From assembly GCA_018822845.1 (NCBI GenBank), contig JAHJJD010000069.1, positions 1-64,000 on the forward strand: a DNA stretch of 64,000 nt, in the 5' to 3' direction. A program made the position numbers and the translations under genes. This DNA is from Gammaproteobacteria bacterium. Its GTDB lineage: Bacteria > Pseudomonadota > Gammaproteobacteria > Thiotrichales > Thiotrichaceae. The notes under the pieces were generated by a model, which did not search any database, was not told where the DNA came from, and saw nothing but the letters and a program-made list of their open reading frames with translations. Below, piece by piece: positions 31,566 to 49,282 of this stretch (positions are counted from its first letter, which is position 1; each line of letters begins with the position of its first letter).

Positions 31566-33281
31566 ATGAAATTCCAAACTGATCGTGGCATTCCCACTGA
31601 TATGGGCCGCCGCCGTTTTGTCCAGGGGTTGACCACTGGTGGTATGCTGGCCAGCCTTGGGCTGCTTTCCCCCGGCCTGTTGCGCGCCGCCCCCAACCCG
31701 GATGTAGCGGTGCTGGATGGCCCCAGCTTCGACCTGACGATTGATGAAGTCGCAGTCAATTTCACCGGCCAACCGCGCATGGCGACCGCCATCAACGGCT
31801 CGGTTCCTGCACCGGTACTGAGGATGCGCGAGGGTGACGACATCACCATCCGCGTCACCAACCGCATGTCCGTTACCTCTTCCCTGCACTGGCATGGCCT
31901 GATCCTGCCCTCCAATATGGATGGTGTGCCGGGCTTGAGTTTTGCGGGCATCAAGCCGGGGGGAACCTATACCTACCACTTCAAGGCTGCGCAAAGCGGC
32001 ACCTACTGGTATCACAGCCACTCCGGCTTCCAGGAACAGACCGGCATGTACGGCGCGATTGTGATCGAACCACGCAACGCAGACCCGGTGCGCTATGACC
32101 GGGAATATGTCGTGCTGTTTTCCGACTGGTCGGATGAACGCCCGGAACAGATTTTCGCCAAGCTGAAAAAGCTCAGCCATTACTACAACACCCGTGAACG
32201 CACCCTGGGCGATTTCAGCGCCGAAGTCAGCCGGAAAGGGCTGGGGCAGGCCATGCAGGATCGCAAGATGTGGAATGAGATGCGCATGAGCGACCGCGAC
32301 CTTTCTGATGTGACCGGCTGGACCTACACCTTCCTCGCCAATGGCAAAACGCCGAATGAGGGCTGGGAGGGAATGTTCCGCCCCGGTGAACGGGTGCGCC
32401 TGCGCCTGATCAACGGTTCCGCCATGACCTTTTTCGACGTGCGTATTCCGGGGCTGAAAATGGAAGTGGTGGCAGCCGACGGGCAGAACATCCGCCCGGT
32501 ACGGGGCATTGACGAAATCCGCATGGGCGTTGCTGAAACCTACGATGTGATCGTACAACCACAGGCAGGCGCTTACACCGTGTTCGCACAGGCGATTGAC
32601 CGCTCCGGTTATGCGCGCGGAACCCTGACCAGCCAGCCAGGGCAGAAAGCCGCCATACCCGCCTTTGATCCCATGCCGATCCTCACCCACGCCGATATGG
32701 GCATGGGTGGAACCGACATGGCCGGAATGGATCACAGCGCCATGGGCCACGACATGAGCCAGATGGGCCAGCCACGTGTCCCGGTCAAGACGGGGCCGCA
32801 GGTTGACATGATGGCCATGGCAGCACAGGTACGGCTGGATGACCCCGGAGTGGGTCTGCGCAACAACGGGCGGCGGGTACTGACTTACGCCGACATCCGC
32901 AACCTGACGCCGACCATCGACCAACGTCCACCGGGGCGCGAAATCGAGCTGCACCTGACCGGCAACATGAACCGTTACATGTGGTCGATCAACAGTGTGA
33001 AATTCGCTGACGCCAAACCGATCGTTCTCAAGTTCGGCGAACGGGTGCGTTTCACCCTGATCAACGACACCATGATGAACCACCCCATCCACCAGCACGG
33101 CATGTGGAGCGAACTGGAAACCGGCGACCCCAACTACCTGCCGCGCAAACACACCGTGATCGTGCAACCCGGCGCAAAAATCAGCTATCTGCTCAGCGCC
33201 GACGCCAGGGGGCAATGGGCTTACCACTGCCATTTGCTGTACCACATGGAAGGCATGATGCGCCGCGTGGTTGTGGCGTAA
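31566..33281 (+). CDS. copA: Copper-resistance multicopper oxidase CopA/PcoA
   Basis: This Tat-exported oxidase (RRRFVQGLTTGG near residue 15) oxidises Cu(I) in the periplasm. All four copper-ligand clusters are present: SLHWHGLILP near residue 98, YWYHSHSGFQEQTG near 141, HPIHQHGMW near 508 and YHCHLLYHMEGMM near 553. A Met-rich loop (MGMGGTDMAGMDHSAMGHDM near 380) is typical of PcoA and binds extra copper. Length (571) and the copB gene directly downstream support CopA rather than CueO. It is separate from the P-type ATPase gene in this cluster that is also commonly called copA. Confidence 0.95.
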   Translation: MKFQTDRGIPTDMGRRRFVQGLTTGGMLASLGLLSPGLLRAAPNPDVAVLDGPSFDLTIDEVAVNFTGQPRMATAINGSVPAPVLRMREGDDITIRVTNRMSVTSSLHWHGLILPSNMDGVPGLSFAGIKPGGTYTYHFKAAQSGTYWYHSHSGFQEQTGMYGAIVIEPRNADPVRYDREYVVLFSDWSDERPEQIFAKLKKLSHYYNTRERTLGDFSAEVSRKGLGQAMQDRKMWNEMRMSDRDLSDVTGWTYTFLANGKTPNEGWEGMFRPGERVRLRLINGSAMTFFDVRIPGLKMEVVAADGQNIRPVRGIDEIRMGVAETYDVIVQPQAGAYTVFAQAIDRSGYARGTLTSQPGQKAAIPAFDPMPILTHADMGMGGTDMAGMDHSAMGHDMSQMGQPRVPVKTGPQVDMMAMAAQVRLDDPGVGLRNNGRRVLTYADIRNLTPTIDQRPPGREIELHLTGNMNRYMWSINSVKFADAKPIVLKFGERVRFTLINDTMMNHPIHQHGMWSELETGDPNYLPRKHTVIVQPGAKISYLLSADARGQWAYHCHLLYHMEGMMRRVVVA

Positions 33282-33293
33282 AGGACGAGGAAA

Positions 33294-34313
33294 ATGAACA
33301 TGAAAACACCAATCATCACTGCCCTGCTGCTGGGTTTATCCGTTCCTGCGCTGGCGCTGGCCACCGAAAGCACTGGCTGCACCCCGGAACACGAAGCCAT
33401 GGGACACTGCAAAATGGAAACACCGGCCAAACCTGCAAAAAAGGCCAAACCGGCCAAGGCAAAGCCCAAACCTGCCCCCAAATCCAAACCTGTCAAAGCC
33501 AAGGCAAAACCGGCTGCCAAACCCGTGGCGGCTGACCCAAAGCCCAAAGCCAGCACCTGTAGCCCTGAACATGAGGCCATGGGGCACTGCAAATCCTCCA
33601 CTACCCCCGCCATTCCGGTCAGCGATGGCTCAGCCGCCACCAACATCCCGGTACCATTTCCACAAGCCATGCACATGGGGGATGACCCCACCCTGACCAA
33701 GGTCATGATCAACCAGCTTGAAATCCGCCAGGCCGACCAGGGCGACAACCCGCTGGCCTGGGAAGCCGAAGCATGGATAGGCAAGGATTTGAACAAGCTC
33801 TGGCTAAAAACCGAAGGTGAAAGCGTCGGCGGTAATACTGAGGAAGCCGAAGTACAAGCCCTCTACAGCCGCGCCATTGCCCCCTTCTGGGACGTACAAG
33901 CCGGGGGGCGCAAGGACTTTGAACCGGCAGGCAGGGAATGGGCAACCGTCGGTGTGAAAGGGCTGGCCCCCTACCACTTTGATGTTGACGCCGCCCTGTT
34001 CGCAGGCACGGAAGGCCGCAGCGCCGCCCGCCTGAAAGGCGAATACGAAATCATGCTGACCCAGAAAACCGTGCTATCCCCCGAGGCCGAGATCAACCTG
34101 TACGGCAAGGATGACCCGGAAATGGGCATAGGTTCCGGCCTGGCGGATGCCAATGTCGGGTTGCGCCTGCGGCATGAATTCAAGCGCGAATTCGCCCCTT
34201 ACATCGGCGTCAACTGGTCGAAGAAATTCGGCAAAACCGCCGATTTTGCCCGTGATGACGGCGAGAAGACGCAAGACACCCAGTTTGTTGCTGGCGTCCG
34301 TCTCTGGTTCTAA
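33294..34313 (+). CDS. copB: Copper-resistance outer-membrane protein CopB/PcoB
   Basis: The C-terminal 215 residues match CopB (DDPTLTKVMINQLEIRQ, AWIGKDLNKLWLKTEGE, EVQALYSRAIAPFWDVQAGG, ending in VRLWF) and should form the outer-membrane barrel. The N-terminal 110 residues hold a signal peptide, two copies of a Cys/His motif (CTPEHEAMGHCKM near 29 and CSPEHEAMGHCKS near 89) and a Lys/Pro/Ala-rich linker between them. The motif also occurs in the next gene. Ligands Cys, His, Met and Cys make copper binding likely. Spacing of 12 bases to copA indicates an operon. Confidence 0.93.
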   Translation: MNMKTPIITALLLGLSVPALALATESTGCTPEHEAMGHCKMETPAKPAKKAKPAKAKPKPAPKSKPVKAKAKPAAKPVAADPKPKASTCSPEHEAMGHCKSSTTPAIPVSDGSAATNIPVPFPQAMHMGDDPTLTKVMINQLEIRQADQGDNPLAWEAEAWIGKDLNKLWLKTEGESVGGNTEEAEVQALYSRAIAPFWDVQAGGRKDFEPAGREWATVGVKGLAPYHFDVDAALFAGTEGRSAARLKGEYEIMLTQKTVLSPEAEINLYGKDDPEMGIGSGLADANVGLRLRHEFKREFAPYIGVNWSKKFGKTADFARDDGEKTQDTQFVAGVRLWF

Positions 34314-34337
34314 TGTCTATCCATAAGGAAACCGAAC

Positions 34338-34976
34338 ATGAAACTGTATCAATCAATTGCAATCAGCATGATCACCATGGCTCTGGCAGGCTACGCCTTT
34401 GCAGGTGGCGATCATGAAGGCCAACATGCCCATGACACAAATGCCGCGTCAACCCAAGGGCAGGCTACACAAGGCTCCACAGCAGCCAGTACCTGTACCC
34501 CGGAACATGAAAAAATGGGGCACTGCAAAATGGACGAGGCCGAAGACACAGGCCGTCACGCCCATCAGGACGACGGACATGGAAATCATCAGCATATGGA
34601 ATCTGCTGTCGGCAAACCTGCTGAGGCAGCAGATGCCACCAAAACCATTGAAGTCAGCCTGCTGGATAGCATGGAGTTTGAATTTGCCGAGCAACCCGAC
34701 ATACAGGGTGGCGACATCGTGAAATTCGTTGTCATCAACAACGGCAAACTTGCCCATGAGTTTTCCATCGGCAATGAAAGTGAGCAGGATGCCCACCGGA
34801 AAATGATGCAGCAAATGCCCGACATGCAGCACGCAGACGGTAACACCGTGACCGTCCAGCCGGGTGAAAGCAAGGAACTGGCCTGGCAATTCACTGGCCC
34901 GAACAAGGTCATGTTTGCCTGCAATGTCCCTGGCCATTTTGAGGCAGGGATGCACCACGAAACAGAGGTGCAATAA
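34338..34976 (+). CDS. Cupredoxin-domain periplasmic copper protein
   Basis: A signal peptide (MALAGYAFA) is followed by a His-rich region with one copy of the motif CTPEHEKMGHCKM near residue 53 and HAHQDDGHGNHQHM near 74. The C-terminal half is a cupredoxin: GGDIVKFVVINNGKLAHEFS near 124 with the first His, then FACNVPGHFEAGM near 195 holding the Cys, His and Met type-1 ligands. It resembles CopI-type proteins. The type-1 site suggests electron transfer to an oxidase or copper storage. It lies 24 bases after copB. Confidence 0.88.
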   Translation: MKLYQSIAISMITMALAGYAFAGGDHEGQHAHDTNAASTQGQATQGSTAASTCTPEHEKMGHCKMDEAEDTGRHAHQDDGHGNHQHMESAVGKPAEAADATKTIEVSLLDSMEFEFAEQPDIQGGDIVKFVVINNGKLAHEFSIGNESEQDAHRKMMQQMPDMQHADGNTVTVQPGESKELAWQFTGPNKVMFACNVPGHFEAGMHHETEVQ

Positions 34977-34992
34977 CCATCGTCCATAACAA

Positions 34993-35016
34993 GCAGGTGG
35001 CGCATATGCCACCTGC
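34993..35016. promoter_or_regulatory. Perfect palindrome before the DUF411 gene
   Basis: GCAGGTGGC and GCCACCTGC are perfect 9-base arms around GCATAT. No T tract follows, so it is not an ordinary terminator. It could be an operator or an mRNA hairpin that sets expression of downstream genes relative to the cupredoxin gene. It ends 15 bases before the start at 35032. Confidence 0.6.
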
Positions 35017-35031
35017 ATGGAGACTATCACC

Positions 35032-35538
35032 ATGAAACAGACACATTTGATGATCACACTGGCGCTTGCCGGACTTTTCAGCCTTGCCGGGGCAGCATTT
35101 ATTGCCAATCAGAAGGCCGACGCGCCGACAGTAACGACTACCGACCCCAGCCTGCCGCTCGTCACCGTCTACAAAAGCGCCACCTGTGGCTGCTGCAAAG
35201 ACTGGGTGAAACACATGCAGGACAACGGCTTCCGGGTGGAAGCACACGATGTCGGCAACCTGTTGCCCTACAAGGAACAGGCCAAATTGGGCGCAGGCAT
35301 GGGTTCCTGCCATACCGCCTTTGTGGATGGCTACGCCATTGAGGGGCATGTACCCGCCTGGGACGTGAAACGCCTGCTGACAGAAAAACCGGACATTTCC
35401 GGCCTGACCGTACCGCGCATGCCCGCCGGTTCGCCCGGCATGGAAGTACCCGGACAGCCTGCTGATGCCTATCAGGTCATCAGTTACAAGGATGGCGAGG
35501 AAACCGGGGTATTCAGCGATTATCCGGCAGGAAAATGA
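35032..35538 (+). CDS. DUF411 copper-binding protein (CopG-like)
   Basis: The 168-residue protein has a signal or anchor (LMITLALAGLFSLAGAAF) and the DUF411 motif YKSATCGCCKDWVKHMQDNG near residue 50, with the conserved Cys trio. Further matches are GSCHTAFVDGYAIEGHVPA near 97 and the tail DAYQVISYKDGEETGVFSDY. CopG/DUF411 proteins occur widely in periplasmic copper-resistance clusters and bind copper through cysteines. I start at ATG 35032, five codons after another possible start. It is 15 bases before the second multicopper oxidase gene. Confidence 0.9.
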   Translation: MKQTHLMITLALAGLFSLAGAAFIANQKADAPTVTTTDPSLPLVTVYKSATCGCCKDWVKHMQDNGFRVEAHDVGNLLPYKEQAKLGAGMGSCHTAFVDGYAIEGHVPAWDVKRLLTEKPDISGLTVPRMPAGSPGMEVPGQPADAYQVISYKDGEETGVFSDYPAGK

Positions 35539-35553
35539 CAGGAGGGAAATAAC

Positions 35554-37098
35554 ATGGACACACATTCACGCCGCAGTTTTCTGAAACTGGCCTGTGCCGG
35601 TACTGGTTTGCTGGCGCTTGCTCCCTACAGCAGCTTTTTGTTGGCGGAAAACAGGCAAGCAATGCCTTTTGGCAATGCTTTCGTTGTCCCACCCTTGGAT
35701 CAGGGGCTGCGGCAAGGCAAACAGGTCAGGTTTGTACTGAACATGCAGCAGGGAAAAATGGCTTTTTTACCTGGTATGGAAACACCCACACTGGGTATTA
35801 ACGCCCCGTATTCCGGCCCGGTACTGCACGCCCGCAAAGGTGATGATGTCAGCTTGCAGGTCAATAACCGTACTGAGGAAGCATCCATCCTGCACTGGCA
35901 CGGCTTCAGGCTGCCTGCCGTAATGGATGGAGGCCCCCATCAGTCCATCCCTCCAGGCGGCTCCTGGACTGCCCGTTTCGAGGTACGTCAGGATGCCTCA
36001 ACCTGCTGGTACCATTCACACCAGCACAACCAGACCGGGCAGCAGGTTTATCGCGGGCTGGCAGGCATGTTCATCATTGATGATGACCGCATCGGTACGC
36101 TGGACATTCCTTCCCGCTACGGTGTGGATGACCTTCCAGTGATTATCCAGGATCGCGATTTCAATGCTGACGGCTCCTTCCGCTATATCAGCATGATGCC
36201 CGAACGTATGCACGGCAAACATGGCTCCACCATCCTGGTTAATGGCGTAGTCACACCGACCTTGCAGGCGCAAAGCACCCTGTTGCGCCTGCGGGTGCTG
36301 AACGGTTCCAACGCCCGCATTTACAAACTGGCATTCCATGACAACCGCGCCTTTCAGGTCATCGCCAGTGATGGCGGCTTTCTGCCCCAGGCCGCCACTG
36401 TGCGCCAGTTGGTGCTTGCACCGGGTGAACGGGCGGAACTGCTGGTTGATGTCGCCGACCGCAAGGCAATCGTACTGAAAAGCCTGCGCGGGGCAATTGT
36501 GGCCAATGACGGCATGATGGGGGGAATGATGGCACGGATGATGGGCAACATGGGTTTTGACCAGGAACTCGACATCCTGAGGATTGATGCCAGTCAGGCT
36601 GAAACTTCTTCCCATCGCCGTCCACAAGCCCTGATCCGGCCTACACTGCTGAACCCCAGGGATGCCCGGCTCAGCCGGACGATACAGATATCCATGGGCA
36701 TGATGGGCGGTGGCATGATGATGGGTGGAATGATGAACCGCCGGGGTGGCGGCATGGACGGCATGTTCACCATCAACGGCAAGGCATTCGACATGGACAG
36801 GATCGACTTCGAGGCCAAACGCGACACACCGGAAATCTGGGAAGTCAGCAATGATTCCCCCATGCAGCACCCTTTCCACATCCACAACGTGCAATTCCAG
36901 ATCCTTGAGCGCAATGGCCGGGGAGTAGCAGCACACGAAACCGGATTGAAGGATACAGTGCTGGTCAACCCCAACGAAACCGTGCGCCTGTTGATGGTAT
37001 TCCAGCATTACAGTGATGGCCACACCCCCTACATGTACCACTGCCACAACCTCGAACATGAGGATCAGGGCATGATGGGACAGTTTGTGGTTGTTTAA
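35554..37098 (+). CDS. Second multicopper oxidase (CueO-like, Tat-exported)
   Basis: A Tat signal ([14 protein letters not shown] near residue 5) precedes a 514-residue three-cupredoxin oxidase. Ligands: [10 protein letters not shown] near 113, [15 protein letters not shown] near 150, [12 protein letters not shown] near 437 and [14 protein letters not shown] near 494. Met-rich loops ([17 protein letters not shown] near 315; [20 protein letters not shown] near 382) are typical of cuprous oxidases. It differs clearly from CopA at 31566 and resembles the third oxidase at 43149. Probable role: Cu(I) oxidation in the periplasm. It is in the same series as the DUF411 gene and SHOCT protein. Confidence 0.93.
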
Positions 37099-37112
37099 AC
37101 GAGGATATTGAA

Positions 37113-37328
37113 ATGTACGATGGACACTGGTTCGGCGGAGGGTTTATGTGGGTATTCTGGTTACTCATGGTCATCGCCATCATCTGGGTTATCAAAATGC
37201 TGACAGATGGTGGAAACACATCCGGTAATAAACAGAAATCGGCCCTGGACATACTCAAGGAACGCTATGCCCGAGGAGAAATTGATAAAGAGGAGTTCGA
37301 GTCGAAGAAAAAGGATTTATCGTCATAA
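37113..37328 (+). CDS. SHOCT domain membrane protein, 71 aa
   Basis: A membrane helix (about residues 11-29, [17 protein letters not shown]) is followed by a complete SHOCT motif: [20 protein letters not shown] then SKKKDL. SHOCT modules mediate oligomerisation and are common as small membrane proteins next to copper ATPases and oxidases. The N-terminus begins [10 protein letters not shown], with a His that may face the periplasm. It lies 14 bases after the oxidase and 31 before the ATPase. Confidence 0.88.
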
Positions 37329-37359
37329 CAACGCCCGAAGAGCGGGCAAGGAGACAGGC

Positions 37360-39501
37360 ATGTTGACCGGCAATACACCGGGAGCTGCACCCATAGCCAC
37401 CGGAACAATCTACACTTGCCCCATGCACCCGGAGGTTCGTCAGGATCATCCCGGCAATTGCCCAAAGTGTGGCATGACGCTGGAAGCACTGATCCCTGAA
37501 CTTGAGGAAGAAGGGAATCCTGAACTGGATGACTTTCGGCGGCGCTTCTGGTGGACGTTGCCACTGACCGTCATTGTCACGATCCTGGCGATGTTTGGCC
37601 ATCAATTGGGCTGGTTTGATGCGGCCAGACAAAGCTGGACTGAACTTGCCCTGGCGCTGCCCATTGTACTGTGGGCAGGTTGGCCTTTTTTCTTGCGTGG
37701 CTGGCAATCAGTCGCCATGCGTAGCCCCAATATGTGGACCCTGATCGGGCTGGGTACTGGCACAGCTTTTGTCTACAGTGTAGTCGCCACCGTGGCACCA
37801 CAAATATTCCCGGATTCATTTATCACCAATGGGCGGGTTGCCGTGTATTTTGAGGCCGCAGCAGTCATCATCTCGCTGACCTTGTTGGGGCAGGTAGTGG
37901 AGTTGAAGGCGCGTTCACAGACCTCGGCAGCCATCAAATCCCTGCTCAACCTGTCACCCAAAACCGCACGCCGGATTCTCCCTGATGGTAGCGAAGCAGA
38001 TGTCCCGCTGAACCATATTCATGTGGGAGACCTCTTGCGGGTGCGCCCCGGTGAAAAGGTGCCAGTGGATGGCGTGGTGCTGGAAGGCAGCAGTTCAGTG
38101 GACGAGTCCATGCTGACAGGTGAGCCATTGCCGATCAGCAAGGTGGCTGGCGACAAACTCATTGGTGCCACACTCAACAAAAACGGGGCACTGGTGATGC
38201 GCTCCGAAAAAGTCGGTGCTGCCACCATGCTGGCCCAGATTGTGCAAATGGTAGCGCAAGCACAACGCTCAAAAGCGCCCATGCAACGTATGGCCGATGT
38301 AGTCGCTGGTTATTTTGTGCTGGCTGTAGTTTGTGCTGCCTTCCTGACATTTTTTATTTGGGGCTTGTTCGGCCCCGAACCGAGCTGGGCCTTCGGCCTG
38401 CTCAATGCTGTAGCAGTGCTGATTATCGCCTGCCCCTGTGCGCTTGGCTTGGCAACCCCCATGTCCATTATGGTGGCAACCGGGCGTGGAGCCACCAATG
38501 GGATATTATTCCGCGATGCTGCCGCCATAGAAAGCCTGTGCAAAGTCGACACCCTGATCGTCGACAAAACCGGCACGCTGACCGAGGGTCATCCAGCCTT
38601 TGACCGCACGCTTGCAGCACCCGGATTTACAGGGAAGGAAATCTTGCGCCTGGCGGCCAGTCTGGATCAGGGCAGCGAACACCCATTGGCAGAGGCGATC
38701 GTCCGGGCTGCGCGGGAACGTGGCCTGGTGCTGGACAAACCCGAGAACTTTGAGTCCAGCTCTGGCACTGGTGTACGCGGCCAGGTTGCGGGGCAACAAC
38801 TGGCGTTGGGTAATACAACCTTGATGGCACAGCTTGGTATTTCCGTCGATACCTTGAAGACACCAGCCGAAACCCTGCGTGTGGACGGTGCCAGTGTCAT
38901 GTATTTGGCAGTCGACGCCCAATTGGCTGGCCTGCTGGCAGTGTCCGATCCGCTCAAAGCGAGTACACCGGGAGCGATTGCCCAACTGAAAAAGGAGGGA
39001 ATAAACATCATCATGGCCACGGGGGATGGGCTGACCACGGCACGGGCTGTTGGGATGCGCCTCGGCATTGAGGAAGTGCATGGTGAAGTCAAACCGGAGG
39101 ACAAGCTGGGCCTCGTGGCACAACAACAACAACAACTGGGGAAAATCGTTGCCATGGCCGGGGACGGTATCAACGATGCTCCGGCCCTTGCCAAGGCTAA
39201 TGTCGGCATAGCCATGGGAACCGGCACCGATGTCGCCATGAATAGTGCCGCACTGACGCTGGTCAAGGGTGACCTGCATGGCATCGCTGTTGCACGTTCA
39301 CTGTCCAGGGCAACGGTGGCCAACATGAAACAGAACCTGATGTTTGCCTTCCTCTATAACACATTAGGCATACCAGTAGCGGCTGGGGTGCTCTATCCTG
39401 TAACCGGCTGGCTTCTGTCCCCGATGATTGCCGCACTGGCGATGAGCTTTAGCTCTGCCTCCGTGATCGGTAATGCCTTGCGTTTAAGGGCGCGCCGCTA
39501 A
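37360..39501 (+). CDS. copA: Cu(I)-translocating P-type ATPase (CopA type)
   Basis: P1B-type ATPase motifs are complete in 713 residues: a heavy-metal-binding domain [20 protein letters not shown] near residue 20, the transport motif [10 protein letters not shown] near 358, phosphorylation site [10 protein letters not shown] near 401, [10 protein letters not shown] near 441 and [10 protein letters not shown] near 601. The CPC motif indicates Cu(I), or Ag(I), export from cytoplasm to periplasm. The N-terminal domain is the zinc-ribbon-like YHS/HMBD type rather than the CxxC fold, as in SilP-like and related pumps. I start at ATG 37360 with AAGGAG upstream. It supplies Cu(I) to the periplasmic oxidases encoded alongside. 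Confidence 0.95.
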
Positions 39502-39584
39502 CCGCAACAAAAGCAAATCCGTGTCAACCATTTCCCCGCCCACCCGAAATAACCCCTGACACGGAAGGCGGCGAAGGAGCCGAT

Positions 39585-40151
39585 TTGAAACCAGACAGCC
39601 AGCCTGAACTGGAACCATTTTTGCGACGCATACGCTCCCCGGCGTTGGCGTTTGCTGTCGTGCGCCTGCGGGATGAAGACACTGCCCTGGATATGGTGCA
39701 GGAAACCATGATCGGCTTTGTCAAAGTTGCGTCCGGCTACGGGGAAGAGGCTTGGACAAACCTGTTCTACAAAATCCTCCTGCGCCGCATAACGGACTGG
39801 CAGCGAAAAGTGGCATGGCGTACCCGACTTTGCTGCATCCTGCCGTTTTCACAACTGGGTAATGCTGACGACGATGATGGGGAAGACAATATTACTGCCC
39901 ATGCTGGGAACACCATACAGGATATGGCTGAATCCGCTTACGATGCTGGCATTCTGTTCGGACATTTTGAGCGCGTGCTACAATCCTTGCCAGCCCGCCA
40001 GCAGGAAGCCTATTTGCTGCGCCAGTGGCAAGGCATGGACGTGAAAGCAACGGCAGACATCATGGGGTGTTCACAAGGCAGCGTGAAAACCCATTTGTCA
40101 CGGGCGATGCAAACCTTACGGGAGCAACTGGGGGAGTGGCTGGATGAATAA
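39585..40151 (+). CDS. ECF-type RNA polymerase sigma factor
   Basis: Sigma region 2 is seen in AFAVVRLRDEDTALDMVQET near residue 23 and region 4 in LQSLPARQQEAYLLRQWQGM near 128 with GCSQGSVKTHLSRAMQTLRE. An acidic inter-domain segment (GNADDDDGEDN) is longer than usual. The start is TTG at 39585 with GAAGGAG nine bases upstream. The next gene overlaps by 8 bases and has the layout of an anti-sigma factor. It probably controls the downstream envelope genes and possibly the copper series; no promoter motif was identified. Confidence 0.9.
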   Translation: MKPDSQPELEPFLRRIRSPALAFAVVRLRDEDTALDMVQETMIGFVKVASGYGEEAWTNLFYKILLRRITDWQRKVAWRTRLCCILPFSQLGNADDDDGEDNITAHAGNTIQDMAESAYDAGILFGHFERVLQSLPARQQEAYLLRQWQGMDVKATADIMGCSQGSVKTHLSRAMQTLREQLGEWLDE

Positions 40152-40629
40152 GCTTGACCAACTCGCACAACATCTGGAGCAAAAGCACCGCCACCGCCTG
40201 GAGGCCATGACCCGTGCCACCCTGCAAACGCCACCACCTGCCGTCCGCCGGTCATGGCTGCATCCGGCATTGATGAGGCCGCTTCGACTACGCTCAACGA
40301 CCACCACGATGGTAATGGCATTTGCCGCCAGTGCTGCCCTCGCTGCCGTACTGCTGGCTTTCCTGCCTGAAAAATCACCCACACTGCCCGTAACCCTTGC
40401 AACCCTGCCTGACTGGGTAAAAGACACCGATGTCCCCCTCACCTTACTCGAAAATATGGCCTTTTATGACTGGTTATCCCAACAACCCAGCAACCAGAGT
40501 GCTGCATCACAAAACCGGCTTGTTCTGGCTGACAATCAGCCTGACCGCCTTGGCCCTGGCTGGCGATACGCCACCACCGACCCTGCCGAAAGGTTTTCTG
40601 GAGGATTTGCCCGTGATGGAAGCTTTTGA
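40144..40629 (+). CDS. Putative anti-sigma factor, single-pass membrane protein
   Basis: A soluble N-terminus (MNKLDQLAQHLEQKHRHRLE) is followed by one membrane helix (about residues 58-77, TMVMAFAASAALAAVLLAFL) and a periplasmic tail. Position directly after the ECF sigma gene, with an 8-base overlap, suggests an anti-sigma role like that of DUF3619 proteins. A conserved-looking segment (LLENMAFYDWLSQQP near residue 101) is where such proteins often end. The frame here runs on for about 40 more residues through the start of the next gene. That tail looks like unselected sequence, so an original stop may have been lost. Confidence 0.65.
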   Translation: MNKLDQLAQHLEQKHRHRLEAMTRATLQTPPPAVRRSWLHPALMRPLRLRSTTTTMVMAFAASAALAAVLLAFLPEKSPTLPVTLATLPDWVKDTDVPLTLLENMAFYDWLSQQPSNQSAASQNRLVLADNQPDRLGPGWRYATTDPAERFSGGFARDGSF

Positions 40630-40744
40630 GGAACAGGAATTCACGGCTTTCCTTGCCTTTATCAAGGAACAGGTGTTGCCGGAACCGGCATCCCCTGATG
40701 TACCAGCCAACCCAACAGAGGAGCATAGCGGTGATGGGCAATAA
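40499..40744 (+). CDS. Small secreted protein of the ECF operon, 81 aa
   Basis: The frame from GTG 40499 begins with a clear signal peptide (HHKTGLFWLTISLTALALAG). The mature part has PKGFLEDLPVMEAFEEQEFT and an acidic Pro-rich tail. Signal peptide and composition argue that this is a real gene even though it overlaps the putative anti-sigma frame by 131 bases. I do not recognise the family. An alternative is an upstream start in the same frame, but that would bury the signal peptide. The next gene starts before its stop. Confidence 0.6.
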   Translation: MLHHKTGLFWLTISLTALALAGDTPPPTLPKGFLEDLPVMEAFEEQEFTAFLAFIKEQVLPEPASPDVPANPTEEHSGDGQ

Positions 40745-41246
40745 GCGGAAACTTTTGTGGGGTTGCCTGTTGGTTGTTAGCCTGTATTTCCCCCTGTATG
40801 CAGCGGATGCGGCTAAAACGGCATGGAAAACCCTGCCCCATGAGCTGCAAACGCTACTGGGTGAATACCAACCGGAGTGGGACAAGCTCCCGGTGACGCA
40901 ACAACAAACGTTGTTGACCAATGGACAACATTGGCTTGCCTTGCCGGAAGAGCGCCGTACTGTTTTGTGGCAACGCTTCCAGCAATGGCAGGCCATGTCC
41001 CAGAACCAGCAAACCACCATGCAGCAAGCCTACGGACGCTTCCAGCAATTGCCAGCGGAAGAAAGGCAACGCCTGATGGATAGCCACCAGCGCTTCCAGC
41101 AGATGCCGGTGCAGATACAGCAGCAAATGCTGGAGCGGTTCAATGCTTTCCAGCAGCGGAGCGGGTACGGGGCAGGCAATGCCATGCCAGGGTCGATGGG
41201 CGGGATGGGTAATGGGCCTGCCATGCCGGATGGAATGGGGCATTGA
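40734..41246 (+). CDS. DUF3106 family periplasmic protein
   Basis: After a signal peptide (LLWGCLLVVSLYFPLYA) the protein consists of amphipathic helices with a repeating Leu-Pro-x-x-x-Arg-x-x-Leu pattern: LPHELQTLLGEYQPEWDKLP, LPEERRTVLWQRFQQWQAMS, LPAEERQRLMDSHQRFQQMP. This is the DUF3106 pattern, reminiscent of CpxP-like metal-binding helical repeats. The tail is Met/Gly-rich (MPGSMGGMGNGPAMPDGMGH), a likely copper-binding feature. GAGGAG precedes the start, which overlaps the previous stop. The stop overlaps the next ATG (TGATG). Confidence 0.85.
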   Translation: MGNKRKLLWGCLLVVSLYFPLYAADAAKTAWKTLPHELQTLLGEYQPEWDKLPVTQQQTLLTNGQHWLALPEERRTVLWQRFQQWQAMSQNQQTTMQQAYGRFQQLPAEERQRLMDSHQRFQQMPVQIQQQMLERFNAFQQRSGYGAGNAMPGSMGGMGNGPAMPDGMGH

Positions 41247-42211
41247 TGCTGCGTTACCTGATGTTACCCGCAGTATTGCTGGGGTCGGGAACGGTTGTAG
41301 CAGATGGCTGGTCAGGCAATCTCCAGACCGGGGTGACATACACCAATAACCTGGAGGTGCAATCCAGTACCGGCATTGCACCAGCGGAGCAAACCAGCCT
41401 GAACCGTAGCGGGGCGGAAACCGGTATTAGCTTGCAGCGGCAATCACTCGACTACACGGGGGGCTATGTATGGGAAGGGGTGGCCTCCCTCAACCAGGGC
41501 TTGGCAGGACGCAAGGACATTACCCGTGTACGGGGTGCGGCTTACCGATTGTCGGCGTTGACCACCAACTGGCTGGTGCGTTCCGGTGTGGAGGCTGAAC
41601 ACTACCAGAACGGGGATTTGCCAACAGGCAGTTACCGGGGCGTGGGGGCAGAAACCACCCTGGGTTACGTGGGGGAAACAGGGGCAGGTACCGACATCGG
41701 GCTTTCCGTCAAGCGGGAAGACCACTGGCAAGTGGCAGATACCCCCTACAAGGTGGATAAGCAGACCCTGAAACTGGTGCATTACTTCCCACACCAACCC
41801 AGGCAGGCGTATTGGAGTGTGGAAGGGGCTTACCAACAGGCGCAAGCTGACGATGACAGCCGGGATGCAGCGTCCACCTTGTTGGGCATACAGTACAACC
41901 AATGGGCTATTGGGACACTGACCGGGCAGGTAGGGCTGCAATGGCGGCAGGATGACTACGGGCAGATTTCACCTGGCGAAAATCCATCAGGCAGTATGAC
42001 ACCCCCTGCGGGAGTGGGGCAACCAAGCCGTCAGGACAAGACATACCTCATTTCTGCCAGTCTAGGCAAACAGATCAGGAAAGGTTTGCACCTGCGCTTA
42101 TCGTCCAATGCCGGGCAATATACTTCCACACTGGGGGTTGCCGGGCAGATGCAGGAAGGGACAAACGCAAGGTTTCATGGCGTATCCGCCACACTGGACT
42201 GGGCTTTCTGA
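41246..42211 (+). CDS. Outer-membrane beta-barrel-like protein, 321 aa
   Basis: A signal peptide (LMLPAVLLGSGTVVA) precedes alternating aromatic/polar beta strands through the C-terminal Phe (SATLDWAF), a typical outer-membrane barrel ending. Repeated strand features include GNLQTGVTYTNNLEVQ, GAETTLGYVGETGAGTDIGL and HLRLSSNAGQYTSTLG. I do not recognise the family. Its ATG overlaps the DUF3106 stop, so it belongs to the ECF operon and may be an envelope component regulated by that sigma factor. Confidence 0.7.
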   Translation: MLRYLMLPAVLLGSGTVVADGWSGNLQTGVTYTNNLEVQSSTGIAPAEQTSLNRSGAETGISLQRQSLDYTGGYVWEGVASLNQGLAGRKDITRVRGAAYRLSALTTNWLVRSGVEAEHYQNGDLPTGSYRGVGAETTLGYVGETGAGTDIGLSVKREDHWQVADTPYKVDKQTLKLVHYFPHQPRQAYWSVEGAYQQAQADDDSRDAASTLLGIQYNQWAIGTLTGQVGLQWRQDDYGQISPGENPSGSMTPPAGVGQPSRQDKTYLISASLGKQIRKGLHLRLSSNAGQYTSTLGVAGQMQEGTNARFHGVSATLDWAF

Positions 42212-42340
42212 CATTTCCTGACAAACGGTAGCACAGGCGTGTCAACGGCGGCGGTTTTCATCCGAAATTAGCCCCTGTCAGCAGGCTTGGGCTTGCTGAC
42301 ATAAACCCTAAACAATACTCACAATAAAGAGAGTCCATTT

Positions 42341-42973
42341 ATGAAAACAACACTGTTGTCACTCGTTGCCTTGAGTGCTGCCCTGTCTGCCCCTGCTTTC
42401 GCCGCTGGCTCAATGCTTGACCAACAAAGCCAGGCGGCACAAGCACTGCTGCAATATGACACTAACCAGGATGGCATTATCAGCCGTGCCGAAATGGAAG
42501 CGGGAAAGGCGGCAGAATTTGCCAAAGCTGATGCCAATGCCAATGGTTTCCTGTCATGGGATGAGTTCAATGCATGGAATGAGGCCAAGCGTATTGCACA
42601 AATCAATACCGTGTTTGCTGTGATGGATGCGGATGGTAACGCTTCGGTTTCCGCCGCTGAATTTGCCAATGCCTACCCTGAACGTGGCGCTACACAGGTT
42701 ACCAGCATGTTTGCCCTTGCCGACACCAATGCCGATGGGGCTTTGAGTCAGGAAGAGCTGACAGCCTTGCGTGCAGGTAATGGCGACCCGCTGGAGAAAC
42801 AGTTGGAAATGTTCACCACACTGGATACCAATGCCGATAAGCAATTGTCCGTAGATGAGTTTGGCGGTAAATCAGGCAACGCCAAAGGCAACCGCACGCC
42901 ACCAACCAGCAAGATGTCAGGGACTAATACTTCCGCCTTTGCAGGCAGAATACCGGGTGGTATGCGCCGCTAA
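42341..42973 (+). CDS. EF-hand domain periplasmic protein
   Basis: A signal peptide (LSAALSAPAFA) is followed by five EF-hand-type loops: DTNQDGIISRAE, DANANGFLSWDE, DADGNASVSAAE, DTNADGALSQEE and DTNADKQLSVDE. The first and fourth fit a canonical Ca-binding loop; the others deviate at one or more ligands. Predicted role is calcium sensing or buffering in the periplasm. It follows the barrel gene by 129 bases, and a strong terminator follows it, so it may be the last gene of the ECF operon or have its own promoter. Confidence 0.9.
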   Translation: MKTTLLSLVALSAALSAPAFAAGSMLDQQSQAAQALLQYDTNQDGIISRAEMEAGKAAEFAKADANANGFLSWDEFNAWNEAKRIAQINTVFAVMDADGNASVSAAEFANAYPERGATQVTSMFALADTNADGALSQEELTALRAGNGDPLEKQLEMFTTLDTNADKQLSVDEFGGKSGNAKGNRTPPTSKMSGTNTSAFAGRIPGGMRR

Positions 42974-43148: not shown

Positions 43149-45671
43149 ATGCACAGTAGAACGCTGCGGATAGCAGCCCTTACCCTGACAAGCCTGCTGG
43201 TATTGTCAGCGTGTGGAGGGGGGGGCAGTACACCAGCCAGTACGCCAGCCACTACATTGACCGGTAGCGCATTCAAAGGCCCAATGGACAACGCCCAGGT
43301 CAACATTCTGGATGCTGCTGGAAAAATACTGGCGACCAGCACCAGCAGTAGCGGCAAATTCACCCTGTCTGGCATGACACTGCCAGCGGATGATGCGGCT
43401 GTTTTCATCCAAACCAGTGGTGGCCATTACACGGATGAGGCGACAGGGCTGCCAGTAAATCCTGTCGGTGGGCTGAAAACCGTCTTTACGGTGGCTGACC
43501 TGCAAGCCGTGATCGACAGTGGGACAGTCATTGCCTTGACGCCTGAAACGACCATCATGGCGACCTTGGTGCAAAAATACCTGACCGATGGAAAAACAGC
43601 CGCACAAGCCATTGCCGATGCCAAAGCCCTGGTACAGGCACAACTGATTGATGGGACAAACCCTGCACCCGGCGTGACGGGAGATACGCTGTTGCTGACG
43701 GGTGACTTGAGCCGCGCCATTCCAGCAAACACGGCTGAGGCATTAGCACGTAACCGGGCAATCAGTTTTTCCTACGAGGCACAAGACAAGAGCCTTACGC
43801 CAGCGCAAGCATTTGAACTGATTAACCTGACTGCCCGTGATTTGGAAGATGGCACACTGGATGGCAAAGCAGGCACTGAGATACTCACCTTGAGTGACGA
43901 TGCGGGTAATACCGTAGACCTCAGCCTGGAAGACCGCCAAACCCGTTATGGTCTGGCACGAACCCGCTTATTGGGCAATACCTTGACCCGTTTAGCCAGT
44001 GGCAGTTTGTCTGCGGCAGAGCAGGCTGAATTGGCTCAACTGGGTTTCGATACCAGCCTGATGACCCAAACTGATGCTGCCAACCAGGCCGCCGAAGCAA
44101 ACACCGTTGCTAACCTTGCAGCCACCAATCTTCCCGCTTTTAACCATTTGCCCGTATTGGCGGATGAAGACGGTAATACCACTGACAATCTGGCAACGTA
44201 TACCTTAACCGCAACGCCTAATGTGAACGTCACCATCAATACGCCCGGTGCAACGTGGGTAACACCCATGTCGCGATATAATGGCCTGGAGCTTCCACCG
44301 ATCATTAAAGCCAAACGTGGGCAGGTCATGACCTTGAACCTGCAAAATAACCTGCCAGAAGCAACCACTATCCACTGGCATGGTTTCAAGATTCCGGGCG
44401 ATCAGGATGGTGGGCCGGATTTCCCGGTAGCCGCAAGTGGTAGCAAATCGTATGGCTTCACCTTATCCCAACCTGCTGCCCCGCTCTGGTTCCACCCCCA
44501 CCCAGACATGAAAACCGCTGAACAGGTCTATCGTGGGTTGGCAGGGGTATTCCTGTTGACCGACTCCATTAGCGAGCAACTGGAAACCACTAAACAATTA
44601 CCAACAGGTGCTTATGATATTCCTGTTCTGGTACAAGACCGGCGCTTTGCAGCAGAGGAGAACGGCATCCGTAACCTGGCTTATAAAACCCTGGAAATGG
44701 ACAGTGACGGTATGCTGGGGGATGACATTCTGGTGAATGGGGCAGAATTACCCAAACTGGTGGTGGAAACCCGGCAGTACCGCTTCCGGCTCTATAATGC
44801 TTCCAATGCCCGCGCGTATGATTTTGCCTTGAGCAACGGGGCTAAATTCAAGGTTATTGGCACGGATGGCGGCTTGTTGCCAGCCCCTGTTGAAACTGAC
44901 CATATCGTCTTAGGGGCTGCTGAACGCGCAGAAATTGTAGTCGATTTCAGACAATACGCCGTTGGGGACAAAATCATGCTGGTCAGCAGGGCGTTTCCCG
45001 GTGATGCCATGAACCTGATGACAGGTATGGATGGCTCTGCCAGCATGGGTGACATGACAGGCATGGGCAGCTCAGGCAGCATGGGCGACATGACAGGTAT
45101 GGGTGACTCTGCCAGCATGGATGGCGTGTTACCAAACGGTCGGTACATGGACATTATGCGTTTCGATGTCGCGACACAGGCAGGTGACGACGTGACGCTT
45201 TATGCTACGTTACCTGCGGAAGCAGACATTAATGCCCACCGTTTGCAGGCAAGCGATGCCAGCAAAACCCGAAACTTTGTCTTGACCATGCAAATGGGCA
45301 ATATGGGCAGCGCTACGATGGATAACATGCGTTTTGTCATTAACGGCAAGACTTTTGACATGAACCGTATTGACGAAACCATCAGCCTTGCTGAGGGCAA
45401 TACAGAAATCTGGTCTATCCAGAATATGTCACCCATGGCTCACCCCTTCCATGCCCACGCCATCCAGTGGCAGGTGCTTGACCGCAACGGTATTGCTGCC
45501 ACAGGTACGGATCTGGGGTGGAAAGATACCGTGCTTGTCCAGCCGGGTGAAACAGCCAACCTGATTGGCCGCTTCGACCCTTCGATCAATTATGGTGACT
45601 ATATGTACCACTGCCACATCCTTGAGCATGAAGATGCAGGGATGATGGGCTTTTTCCGCATTACCCAGTGA
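43149..45671 (+). CDS. Lipoprotein-multicopper oxidase fusion, 840 aa
   Basis: The start at ATG 43149 gives a lipoprotein signal (LTLTSLLVLSAC, lipid-modified Cys at residue 22) and a Gly/Ser/Thr-rich linker. Residues 35-110 look like a beta-sandwich (GSAFKGPMDNAQVNILDAAG, SGKFTLSGMTLPADDAAVF). Residues 110-335 are mostly helical and unassigned. From about 345 a complete three-cupredoxin oxidase follows: TIHWHGFKIPG near 406, WFHPHPDMKTAEQVYRGL near 446, AHPFHAHAIQW near 762 and YHCHILEHEDAGMM near 818. A Met/Gly/Ser repeat near 625-658 probably binds copper. Known CueO and CopA enzymes are about 500-600 residues and lack this N-terminal part. It is the third oxidase in 14 kb. Confidence 0.9.
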   Translation: MHSRTLRIAALTLTSLLVLSACGGGGSTPASTPATTLTGSAFKGPMDNAQVNILDAAGKILATSTSSSGKFTLSGMTLPADDAAVFIQTSGGHYTDEATGLPVNPVGGLKTVFTVADLQAVIDSGTVIALTPETTIMATLVQKYLTDGKTAAQAIADAKALVQAQLIDGTNPAPGVTGDTLLLTGDLSRAIPANTAEALARNRAISFSYEAQDKSLTPAQAFELINLTARDLEDGTLDGKAGTEILTLSDDAGNTVDLSLEDRQTRYGLARTRLLGNTLTRLASGSLSAAEQAELAQLGFDTSLMTQTDAANQAAEANTVANLAATNLPAFNHLPVLADEDGNTTDNLATYTLTATPNVNVTINTPGATWVTPMSRYNGLELPPIIKAKRGQVMTLNLQNNLPEATTIHWHGFKIPGDQDGGPDFPVAASGSKSYGFTLSQPAAPLWFHPHPDMKTAEQVYRGLAGVFLLTDSISEQLETTKQLPTGAYDIPVLVQDRRFAAEENGIRNLAYKTLEMDSDGMLGDDILVNGAELPKLVVETRQYRFRLYNASNARAYDFALSNGAKFKVIGTDGGLLPAPVETDHIVLGAAERAEIVVDFRQYAVGDKIMLVSRAFPGDAMNLMTGMDGSASMGDMTGMGSSGSMGDMTGMGDSASMDGVLPNGRYMDIMRFDVATQAGDDVTLYATLPAEADINAHRLQASDASKTRNFVLTMQMGNMGSATMDNMRFVINGKTFDMNRIDETISLAEGNTEIWSIQNMSPMAHPFHAHAIQWQVLDRNGIAATGTDLGWKDTVLVQPGETANLIGRFDPSINYGDYMYHCHILEHEDAGMMGFFRITQ
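45024..45122 (+). repeat. 36-bp tandem repeats encoding a Met-rich loop
   Basis: Two full and one partial unit (45024-45059, 45060-45095, 45096-45122) encode the pattern G-M-x-x-S-x-S-M-G-D-M-T. They lie in the loop where copper oxidases carry a Met-rich insert. The unit preserves the frame, so the number of copper ligands can change by repeat slippage. Confidence 0.8.
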
Positions 45672-46251: not shown

Positions 46252-47400
46252 ATGAGAATTTCCCGTATCCTGCCCGTTTTACTGGTGGCAGTTGTTGTTG
46301 GCTGGTTTATCTGGCAGAAACAGCACCCCAACGCCATGGAAGTCAGCGCCGGAAAAGTGACCCGTGGCCCGGTCGAAGCTACCGTTGCCAACACCCGTGC
46401 AGGTACGGTAAAAGCCTGCCGCCGTGCCAAACTATCCCCCTCCCTCGGCGGGCAGATCAGTACGCTTCCCTTTCCCGAAGGCTCACAGGTCAAAGCAGGC
46501 GATGTGTTGTTACGGCTGTGGAACAACGATCTGCAAGCCAGCCTCAACGCCGCACAGGAAAGTGTGAAAGCCGCCAACCAGCAACGCGACGCCACCTGCC
46601 TGCAAGCCGACGAAGCCAGCCGCAGCGCCGCACGCAGCGAACGCCTGCGCCAGTCCGCCAGCATTTCCCGCGAGGAACTGGATAAAACCAAAACCGCAGC
46701 AGCCGTCGCCGCCGCCAACTGCAAGGCTTCCGCCGCACAAATCACGCTGGCCGAAGCCCAGTTACAAGCCGCGCAAGCCCAGCTTGAACGCACGGTGCTC
46801 ACCGCTCCGTTTGCAGGTATCATCGCCGACATCAACGGCGAACTGAATGAATACGTCACGCCTTCCCCGCCCGGTATCCAGACCCTGCCGGTCATCGACC
46901 TGATCGAACCCGGCTGCTTTCTGGTCAGCGCCCCCATCGACGAAGTGGACGCGCCCAAAATCAAACCCGGCCTGCCCGCCCGCATCACACTGGATAGCTG
47001 GCGCGGGCGTGATTTCCCCGGCGCTGTTACCCGCGTTGGCTCCTACGTGATTGACCTGGAAAAGCAGGCGCGCACTGTCGAAGTCGAACTCGCTTTCAGC
47101 AACCCCGACGACCTCCAGGATTTGCTGGTCGGTTACAGCGCCGACGTGGACATCATCCTCGAAACCCGCCCGGACGTATTGCGCATTCCCACCGAAGCCC
47201 TGTTGGAAAGCAGATACGTCTACCGCTTTTCGCCTGAAGGCACGCTGGAAAAGCATGAAATCCAGACCGGCCTGAACAACTGGACATTCACCGAAGTCAC
47301 AACCGGACTGGAGGAAGGCGAGCAGATTGTGACCACACCGGGCGCGGAAGGCGTCAAGGAAGGCATTGTTGCGAAGCCGAAGGTGGATGGGGATGAGTGA
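46252..47400 (+). CDS. Periplasmic adaptor of a MacAB-type exporter (HlyD/MacA family)
   Basis: One N-terminal membrane helix (about residues 5-20) is followed by the adaptor layout. A biotinyl-lipoyl half-motif GGQISTLPFPEGSQVKAGDV lies near 63. An alpha hairpin (about 90-175, Ala/Gln/Leu-rich) follows, then the second lipoyl half with LTAPFAGIIADINGELNEYV near 183 and a beta-barrel domain with PTEALLESRYVYRF near 313. MacA-type adaptors link the ABC permease to an outer-membrane channel such as TolC. No TolC gene is next to it. The stop overlaps the start of the ATPase gene. Confidence 0.88.
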   Translation: MRISRILPVLLVAVVVGWFIWQKQHPNAMEVSAGKVTRGPVEATVANTRAGTVKACRRAKLSPSLGGQISTLPFPEGSQVKAGDVLLRLWNNDLQASLNAAQESVKAANQQRDATCLQADEASRSAARSERLRQSASISREELDKTKTAAAVAAANCKASAAQITLAEAQLQAAQAQLERTVLTAPFAGIIADINGELNEYVTPSPPGIQTLPVIDLIEPGCFLVSAPIDEVDAPKIKPGLPARITLDSWRGRDFPGAVTRVGSYVIDLEKQARTVEVELAFSNPDDLQDLLVGYSADVDIILETRPDVLRIPTEALLESRYVYRFSPEGTLEKHEIQTGLNNWTFTEVTTGLEEGEQIVTTPGAEGVKEGIVAKPKVDGDE

Positions 47401-48076
47401 AGCATTCATCCAGCTCAAGGATATTTGCCGCCATTTTCAGGTGGGCGATGAAACAGTGCATGCACTCGACCATGTAACGCTCGACATTCAGGCCGGGGAT
47501 TACATCAGCGTCATGGGGCCTTCCGGCTCCGGCAAATCCACTTTACTCAATATGCTGGGCCTGCTTGACCAGACAGACGCTGGTTCCTACCGCTTTGAAG
47601 GCCGTGAACTCACCACCCTGGCGGAAGAAAAACGCGCACAGGTACGGCGGGAAAAGATGGGGTTCATCTTCCAGTCCTTCCACCTCATTCCACGCCTGAG
47701 CGCCGCCGAGAATGTGGAACTGCCGCTGATGCTGATGGGAATGCCTGCTGCCGAACGCAAGGCCAAAGTGAACGAGGCACTGGCAAGCCTGGGCCTGCTG
47801 GAACGCGCCAGCCACCGCCCGGCACAGCTTTCCGGAGGGCAACAACAGCGTGTCGCGATTGCGCGCGCCACCATCCTGCAAGCACCGCTGCTGCTGGCGG
47901 ATGAGCCGACCGGCAACCTCGACTCACATTCCAGCGCCGACGTCATCCATATTCTGGAAGAGCTGAATGCGCAAGGCATTACCCTTATCGTCGTCACTCA
48001 TGACACCAACATCGGCCAACGGGCACGACGCAAAATCCGCATGGTGGACGGGCGAATCGAACAGGATGGCTACTGA
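47393..48076 (+). CDS. ABC transporter ATP-binding protein (MacB/LolD type)
   Basis: Walker A GPSGSGKSTLL near residue 42, signature LSGGQQQRVAIARA near 147 and Walker B LLLADEPTGNLDS near 167 are intact. The FIFQSFHLIPRLSAAENVEL stretch is typical of the MacB/LolD/FtsE group that drives membrane-to-periplasm export by mechanotransmission. It overlaps the adaptor gene and the next permease gene, forming a four-gene operon. Substrate is unknown; macrolides, lipids or peptides are all possible. Confidence 0.93.
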   Translation: MSEAFIQLKDICRHFQVGDETVHALDHVTLDIQAGDYISVMGPSGSGKSTLLNMLGLLDQTDAGSYRFEGRELTTLAEEKRAQVRREKMGFIFQSFHLIPRLSAAENVELPLMLMGMPAAERKAKVNEALASLGLLERASHRPAQLSGGQQQRVAIARATILQAPLLLADEPTGNLDSHSSADVIHILEELNAQGITLIVVTHDTNIGQRARRKIRMVDGRIEQDGY

Positions 48077-49280: not shown

Positions 49281-49282
49281 CG

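Follow-up and report, generated by a model that had tools for sequence, protein, structure and literature searches.

A lipid-anchored multicopper oxidase with a conserved N-terminal domain, the probable output enzyme of a predicted copper-responsive sigma-factor regulon in Thiotrichaceae

CueO is a multicopper oxidase that carries a Tat (twin-arginine translocation) signal. Its Met-rich helix spans residues 357-369, and CueO without the Met-rich region has reduced cuprous oxidase activity, as stated in an excerpt of PMC6155172. PgcA of Geobacter is built differently: an excerpt of PMC11520253 describes a lipid anchor followed by a first domain for which no cofactors are predicted and by three haem domains, and a passage of PMC5732950 calls the protein secreted. 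No paper on the PDB structure of its non-haem domain (9i0d) was found in the literature searched. How could such proteins be switched on? Metal-sensing systems of the CnrYXH type, built on an extracytoplasmic function (ECF) sigma factor, combine this factor with a membrane anti-sigma and a periplasmic metal-binding sensor. CorE of Myxococcus is a copper-dependent ECF sigma factor controlling a multicopper oxidase and copper ATPases; the available part of PMC3107203 assigns copper sensing to a 38-residue Cys-rich C-terminal extension and gives no linked anti-sigma (this ECF factor is also treated in the excerpted part of PMC10141476). Here we describe a gene from the first 64,000 nucleotides (the window) of contig JAHJJD010000069.1, assembly GCA_018822845.1, of a gammaproteobacterium of the Thiotrichaceae. 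It encodes a multicopper oxidase with a lipobox and a large N-terminal domain (N-domain), and lies behind a small gene cassette headed by an ECF sigma factor.

We propose, with a probability of roughly 0.6, that this protein is a cuprous oxidase anchored to the outer membrane and serves a dedicated, copper-responsive ECF sigma regulon as its output enzyme. Sequence and models give us the lipobox, the predicted N-domain fold, the intact ligands, the Met-rich loops, the conserved cassette and the shared promoter-like motif; from these we infer the substrate, the metal signal, the exposure at the surface, the side of the membrane and the roles of the anti-sigma-like and barrel-like proteins. The protein itself is a real, rare and conserved variant of the multicopper oxidases. 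The gene and its parts are as follows, with model confidence given as the predicted local distance difference test score (pLDDT).

43149..45671, plus strand: gene for the lipoprotein multicopper oxidase, 840 residues, defined by the open frame, the Cu-oxidase Pfam domains and 20 loci with the same N-domain
43149..43214, plus strand: lipoprotein signal peptide, residues 1-22, with lipobox LSAC, Cys22 and Gly at +2
43254..44123, plus strand: N-domain, residues 36-325, a beta-sandwich and then helices, with the motif DLEDGTLDG at residues 231-239 (43839-43865)
44181..45668, plus strand: multicopper oxidase region, residues 345-840, from Pfam, structural relatives and alignment
44994..45134, plus strand: Met-rich insert 1, residues 616-662, 10 Met in 47 residues, with pLDDT below 50 at 627-658
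45279..45329, plus strand: Met-rich segment 2, residues 711-727, 5 Met in 17 residues
43039..43064, plus strand: ECF-type promoter-like motif GTCAAC-N16-CGAA, 84 bp before the oxidase start

The frame translates into 840 residues with no internal stop. An earlier ATG is found in it at 42855; relatives agree with the start at 43149, and the conserved promoter-like motif ends just ahead of that start. The preliminary description had raised a true start inside the oxidase domain, which is ruled out because homologues retain the N-terminus and the motif lies upstream. Three Cu-oxidase Pfam domains have their best stretches at residues 372-472, 523-611 and 717-838, and ahead of them Pfam gives only sub-threshold matches, to FlgD_ig and CarboxypepD_reg. 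The candidate copper ligands are H409, H411, H449, H451, H765, H768, H770, H821, C822, H823, H827 and M832, an assignment which we take to follow the standard multicopper oxidase motifs. All 12 ligand or Cys positions are invariant in the alignment (the first four in 26/26 covering rows, the other eight in 20/20), and the set for the type 1 (T1), type 2 and type 3 copper sites is complete in the window's oxidase. Both Met-rich stretches recur in most members; segment 2 sits roughly at the expected position of the CueO Met-rich region, as placed by counting distances from the CueO ligand numbers. The full-length model has a mean pLDDT of 83.8 and falls below 50 at residues 1-32, 627-658 and 827-830. 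The preliminary description had seen a complete cuprous-oxidase-type enzyme fused to a large N-terminal part, anchored by lipid and standing third among oxidases in 14 kb. Each of these points holds: the three domains and 12 positions are kept, the lipobox and Cys22 support lipid anchoring, and CopA (31566-33281) and a CueO-like oxidase (35554-37098) precede the gene at 43149-45671.

How common is this arrangement? A GTDB-wide scan, with one genome per bacterial and archaeal species, returned 36 loci, 20 of which carry the N-domain from its start at 33-60% identity to the window; the N-domain is thus real and not a chance extension. By record title, nine of these belong to Gammaproteobacteria or Thiotrichaceae and the other eleven to Campylobacterota, among them Sulfurovum and Sulfurimonas. 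The remaining loci are one that joins inside the N-domain (L013), short forms without it (L027, L028, L032, L034, L035), contig fragments (L036, L037, L043, L044) and other oxidases (L038-L042, L045). The N-domain occurs at E of 0.001 or better in 5/63 genomes of the window's order, own genome included, in the own genome only within the genus (1/16), and at E 1e-5 in 32/369 genomes of a class sample, again counting the own genome; a Campylobacterota class sample at E 1e-10 yields 1/298, the centre genome itself. From these counts, the architecture is rare but conserved. Eight of the ten strongest loci (E <1e-50) show the HxHG motif and contig ends truncate the remaining two, so that these loci read as oxidase fusions wherever the contig is long enough. 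A plasmid-borne architecture was rejected: 3,822 of 72,556 plasmid records match, and none covers 80% of the query in one place. The preliminary description had allowed for a common architecture with a known role; the one found recurs but is rare, and literature searches found no published role for the combination of lipoprotein, N-domain and multicopper oxidase.

Some members are built unusually. A Sulfurovum metagenome-assembled genome has a single in-frame stop between N-domain and oxidase (L033:7866-10394), which could stem from faulty sequencing, from decay of the gene or from a natural split. In two Sulfurimonas loci (L018:6693-8003 and the first part of L023:6666-10301) the N-domain is preceded by over 400 additional residues that have a lipobox of their own, and L034:7203-7750 shows a repeat-like region in place of the N-domain, which we take to resemble DUF4214.

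What sets the enzyme apart from its better-known relatives? It shares with CueO the three-domain multicopper oxidase build, the ligand motifs and, as far as distance counting suggests, a Met-rich segment before the T1 site, and the CueO model (NF008205) is its best NCBIfam match. Unlike CueO, it has the large N-domain, a second Met-rich insert and a lipobox instead of a Tat signal. With CopA/PcoA and CopB it shares the encoding of an oxidase beside an outer-membrane protein in a copper context, whereas the CopA/PcoA model TIGR01480 is not reached (75.4 bits against a cut-off of 478.95), the genuine CopA and CopB are encoded elsewhere in the window, and the barrel of the cassette lacks a Pfam match. 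Among solved structures the oxidase is closest to a Sulfurimonas enzyme, 8z59, with the molecule name bilirubin oxidase. A maximum-likelihood tree of 29 oxidase regions, midpoint-rooted, places 21 rows in a clade (100/99) separate from the window's own CueO-like protein. The N-domain was probably lost in the short forms, because L028 and the group L027, L032, L034 and L035 nest among fused Campylobacterota forms, with moderate support at the forks concerned (88/73 to 90/91); L013 and L036 are labelled 'short' in the tree merely because their contigs start late. The lipobox is retained in L027, L028, L032 and L035.

Where would the lipid anchor place the protein? Lipoprotein sorting follows a +2 rule that turns on Asp at this position. 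The window protein reads LSAC-G, and Asp at +2 occurs in none of the 20 N-domain loci. The lipobox and the Gly at +2 suggest that the 840-residue oxidase would be sorted to the outer membrane as a lipoprotein; exposure on the cell surface, also raised in the preliminary description, is possible. GspD scores above its cut-off in 15/18 genome entries, or 13/16 distinct genomes (two pairs of entries are the same genome by identical match coordinates), and in 2/14 controls. Type II secretion was nevertheless set aside as an explanation of export, since such systems are common and their presence is not evidence for the route.

The link to a regulon comes from a promoter-like element of two blocks, GTCAAC-N16/17-CGA, which precedes both the sigma gene and the target genes, as in an autoregulated ECF regulon. 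The window has four matches (three on the plus strand in the cluster, the fourth at 56555 on the minus strand) against 0.88 expected, and 0/100 shuffles reach four. Under the strict form, the 4 Mb genome has five matches, three of them in the cluster, and the reversed control three; 15 other N-domain genomes give eight matches in six genomes, five before the oxidase, and the reversed control two. The exact motif stands before the oxidase in 12 of 15 distinct gammaproteobacterial loci with upstream sequence (the window, L010, L011, L012, L014, L015, L016, L019, L024, L025, L049, L050, L052, L053 and L055). This count leaves aside L054, which starts inside the gene, repeats of counted loci (L001, L005 and L048 repeat the window; L006-L009, L046, L047 and L051 have identical motif sequences) and L031, which fell outside the motif scan. 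The motif is even present before the L012 oxidase, although the cassette is unlinked there, and it is found at 0/7 core loci that pair the sigma factor with a DUF3106 protein. These distributions support a predicted, dedicated and autoregulated regulon that includes the oxidase. In L014, a third motif copy (9033) heads another multicopper-oxidase-like frame, 9001-9441, running off the contig, which suggests a further regulon member.

The surrounding genes of the window, all on the plus strand, are these.

31566..39501: CopA, CopB, a CopI-like protein (sub-threshold), DUF411, a CueO-like oxidase and a copper P-type ATPase
39523..39548: motif GTCAAC-N16-CGAA before the sigma-factor gene
39585..40151: ECF sigma factor, 188 residues (Sigma70_r4_2, 58.5 bits against 25.7; TIGR02937, 75.4 against 42.9)
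40144..40629: putative anti-sigma factor, short, with one hydrophobic stretch, overlapping the sigma gene; its role is suggested by position and sequence
40626..41246: DUF3106 protein (PF11304, 65.4 bits against 24.3), probable start at 40734, with a signal-peptide-like N-terminus and a Met-rich C-terminal tail
41243..42211: probable outer-membrane beta-barrel protein ending in Phe, from its sequence pattern
42241..42266: motif GTCAAC-N16-CGAA before the EF-hand gene
42341..42973: EF-hand protein (Pfam EF-hand) with a signal-peptide-like start and its own motif copy

Sigma factor, short gene, DUF3106 gene and barrel gene precede the oxidase on the same strand in 8/9 gammaproteobacterial loci of the GTDB-wide scan with at least 3 kb upstream; for the ninth, L012, the genome (G035, identified by identical match coordinates) has such a cassette on a different contig. 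CorE is a precedent for an ECF factor governing a multicopper oxidase, whereas the window's sigma factor lacks a Cys-rich C-terminal extension, ending 10 residues past its region-4 match, and its gene is overlapped by the anti-sigma-like gene. That short protein has no family match at threshold in Pfam or NCBIfam. The likeness to CnrYXH is one of layout, in which the sensor would be the DUF3106 protein. Here the tails are telling: the last 45 residues hold 7-17 Met plus His in all nine oxidase-linked DUF3106 copies and 1-3 in all seven core copies. The core set of sigma factor and DUF3106, without barrel or oxidase, is present in this genome and in relatives; the genome's own copy (L081, G000:C1:90000-99000) comprises sigma factor, short protein and a DUF3106 protein without the Met-rich tail, and is a paralogue of the cassette. 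No paper using the term DUF3106 was found in the literature searched.

The copper context is dense, with the CopA, CopB, CopI-like, CueO-like and copper ATPase genes all within 12 kb, and CopA/CopB or a copper ATPase is also close to the oxidase in L015, L017, L021, L022, L029 and L036. The EF-hand gene sits between barrel and oxidase in the window; blastp found no copies among the related loci compared, and an identity as lanmodulin was rejected (27.1 bits against 135). Barrel and oxidase of L015 are separated by an opposite-strand gene (6231-7562) whose start is ATPase-like. Directly 3' of the window's oxidase, 46252-50482 encodes a periplasmic adaptor, an ATP-binding cassette ATPase and two MacB-like permeases.

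The AlphaFold2 model of residues 36-345, built from a 21-row alignment, has a mean pLDDT of 90.2 and consists mostly of strands up to about model residue 79 and mostly of helices after it, which agrees with the beta-sandwich and helical region that the preliminary description had read from the sequence. The motif DLxDGxLDG supplies two of the four invariant and two of the seven nearly invariant columns across 28 diverse rows. Is the domain novel, as first described? It has no Pfam family at threshold, and to that extent the label stands; yet it recurs in other lipoproteins and its predicted fold matches the PgcA non-haem domain. A Foldseek search against the PDB gave a best E of 0.054, with no match at 0.001 or better. 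VIA-align, applied as a second step to 999 chains that Foldseek had ranked, placed 9i0d first (Z 10.1, root-mean-square deviation 3.5, 166 of 201 residues, 11% identity), with transthyretin as runner-up at Z 4.2. The predicted model thus matches the overall fold of the PgcA domain, by fold only: neither of two N-domain profiles, A1 and A3, retrieved a PgcA chain from the PDB at E up to 10. The wide profile A3 matched SdrD instead (whole-chain E 6.9e-5, over stretches some 30 residues long) and, at E 0.032, a biofilm surface protein, as would suit a sandwich like that of immunoglobulin (Ig) or CnaB domains. D234 and D238 of the N-domain are spaced by four like D208 and D212 of PgcA, to which they may correspond. 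The two proteins are alike in having a lipid anchor and a cofactor-free first domain before the redox domains, and differ in that the redox part is an oxidase here and haems in PgcA.

What is the domain attached to elsewhere? Among 20 weaker gammaproteobacterial loci (L056-L075), it mostly forms the N-terminus of proteins of other kinds, the majority of which have a lipobox that can be recognised; L069 is matched internally. A Pfam scan of seven of them gave cadherin-like and FG-GAP domains above threshold in L062 and an Ig-like domain in L064, together with a sub-threshold YtkA match in L057. The lipoproteins of L056, L057, L058, L061 and L065 have Met- and His-bearing stretches in the C-terminal part and are possible metal-binding proteins. 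The N-domain may be regarded as a candidate pedestal or display module. Foldseek also matched the model to an uncharacterised protein of Aureococcus anophagefferens virus (E 4.5e-6, query template modelling score 0.40).

The Campylobacterota loci appear to be organised along analogous lines, without detectable homology. In 6/11 fused loci (L017, L018, L020, L022, L030 and L033) the oxidase is preceded on its own strand by a response-regulator-like frame, and L029 has such a frame on the opposite strand. L017, L018, L020 and L022 also encode, near the oxidase, a small Met-rich protein and one that is weakly barrel-like. Stretch 10589-18483 of L022 has two such sets of small Met-rich and barrel-like proteins, the second followed by a two-component system, flanking CopA/CopB homologues and another lipoprotein.

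Several observations weigh against a copper-responsive regulon with this oxidase as its output. The motif was seen by eye before nine sigma genes and only then tested on the oxidase promoters; three of the eight strict matches in other genomes and two of the five in the own genome lie elsewhere. It is not universal, with one mismatch in L049, a spacer of 18 in L052 and no copy in L055, and it is missing before the sigma gene of the L012 genome. In Campylobacterota no copy was tied to the oxidase: a scan of ten oxidase loci gave a single match, in L029, about 8 kb from the oxidase start, and none in the other nine. The small protein and barrel of that phylum are not detectable homologues of the gammaproteobacterial DUF3106 and barrel neighbours (hhalign probability 1-2%), and homology between them was dropped. 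The barrel is a guess from sequence pattern, its Met-rich loop being clear in few of nine members. The CueO score of 312.7 bits is below the cut-off of 525. Across the genus, CopA, the barrel and the N-domain oxidase each occur in 1/16 genomes, so that their link may reflect one acquisition. Finally, insert 1 is Met-poor in L023, L032, L035 and L034 (1, 1, 1 and 0 Met); the substrate may differ among members because Met is scarce in some inserts, and not all members need share one.

Could the enzyme instead be displayed on the surface to oxidise something other than copper, such as phenols, Mn(II), Fe(II) or a polymer? The lipoprotein pedestal does precede cadherin-like, FG-GAP and Ig-like modules in L062 and L064, several members are Met-poor in the insert, and the closest solved relative bears the name bilirubin oxidase. 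We consider this unlikely in view of the copper-gene neighbourhood, the Met-rich loops in most members and the Met-tailed DUF3106 protein of the linked cassette; no Mn, Fe or polymer gene signal was noticed, in the course of work that included no dedicated search. The preliminary description had named metals or a sheath polymer as substrates: metals are the likely class, from the Met-rich loops, the copper-gene neighbourhood and the regulatory cassette, and nothing pointing to a sheath polymer was found.

The fit to PgcA raises the thought of a surface protein passing electrons to minerals, with the N-domain marking an extracellular redox pathway. PgcA is a secreted lipoprotein needed for Fe(III) oxide respiration (excerpts of PMC11520253, PMC5732950 and PMC12307469), and the fold match over 166 residues stands far above the next. 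We regard this as very improbable: the link is one of fold, with no PgcA chain among the profile matches and no Foldseek E of 0.001 or better, the relatives of the N-domain include non-redox modules, and 30 N-domain loci show no CxxCH haem motif in their frames, although the fetched stretch truncates many of these. There is also a small chance that the protein is a periplasm-facing outer-membrane lipoprotein doing the job of CueO or CopA, with the N-domain a mere spacer, no surface role or special regulon, and an incidental motif. Gly at +2 of the lipobox, the short forms without the domain and the two ordinary oxidases next door are compatible with this; the motif kept before the L012 oxidase, even with the cassette unlinked, and the motif count above chance in the window speak against it.

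Under the copper-regulon reading that we prefer, the DUF3106 protein would use its Met-rich tail to sense Cu(I), or Ag(I), in the envelope, and the putative anti-sigma would then release the sigma factor. RNA polymerase would transcribe the sigma operon, the EF-hand gene and the oxidase from the GTCAAC-N16/17-CGA promoters ahead of them. Sorting via its Gly at +2 would bring the lipoprotein to the outer membrane, where the N-domain may act as a rigid pedestal keeping the oxidase off the membrane and the Met-rich loops may gather Cu(I) for it. Electrons would pass from T1 to the trinuclear centre, O2 would be reduced and the less toxic Cu(II) left behind, with the barrel-like protein as the probable partner or channel of the oxidase. 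A bolder picture, which we hold only tentatively and think doubtful as a whole, is that of an outer-membrane copper-oxidation station. There, an ECF system with the Met-tailed DUF3106 sensor would switch on the barrel and a surface-displayed oxidase, and Cu(I) would be oxidised outside the cell. The N-domain would be a general surface-display pedestal shared with PgcA, and the Campylobacterota equivalent would be run by a two-component system with an analogous small Met-rich protein and barrel.

Of greater interest than the oxidase itself are the regulon predicted around it and the fold link between its pedestal and PgcA. What began as an odd fused oxidase can now be tested as a system, a predicted ECF regulon whose promoter-like motif is defined; DUF3106 gains a candidate function, and an unnamed lipoprotein domain is linked by fold to a Geobacter cytochrome. 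Together they suggest a way in which copper may be dealt with at the outer membrane of Thiotrichaceae and some Campylobacterota.

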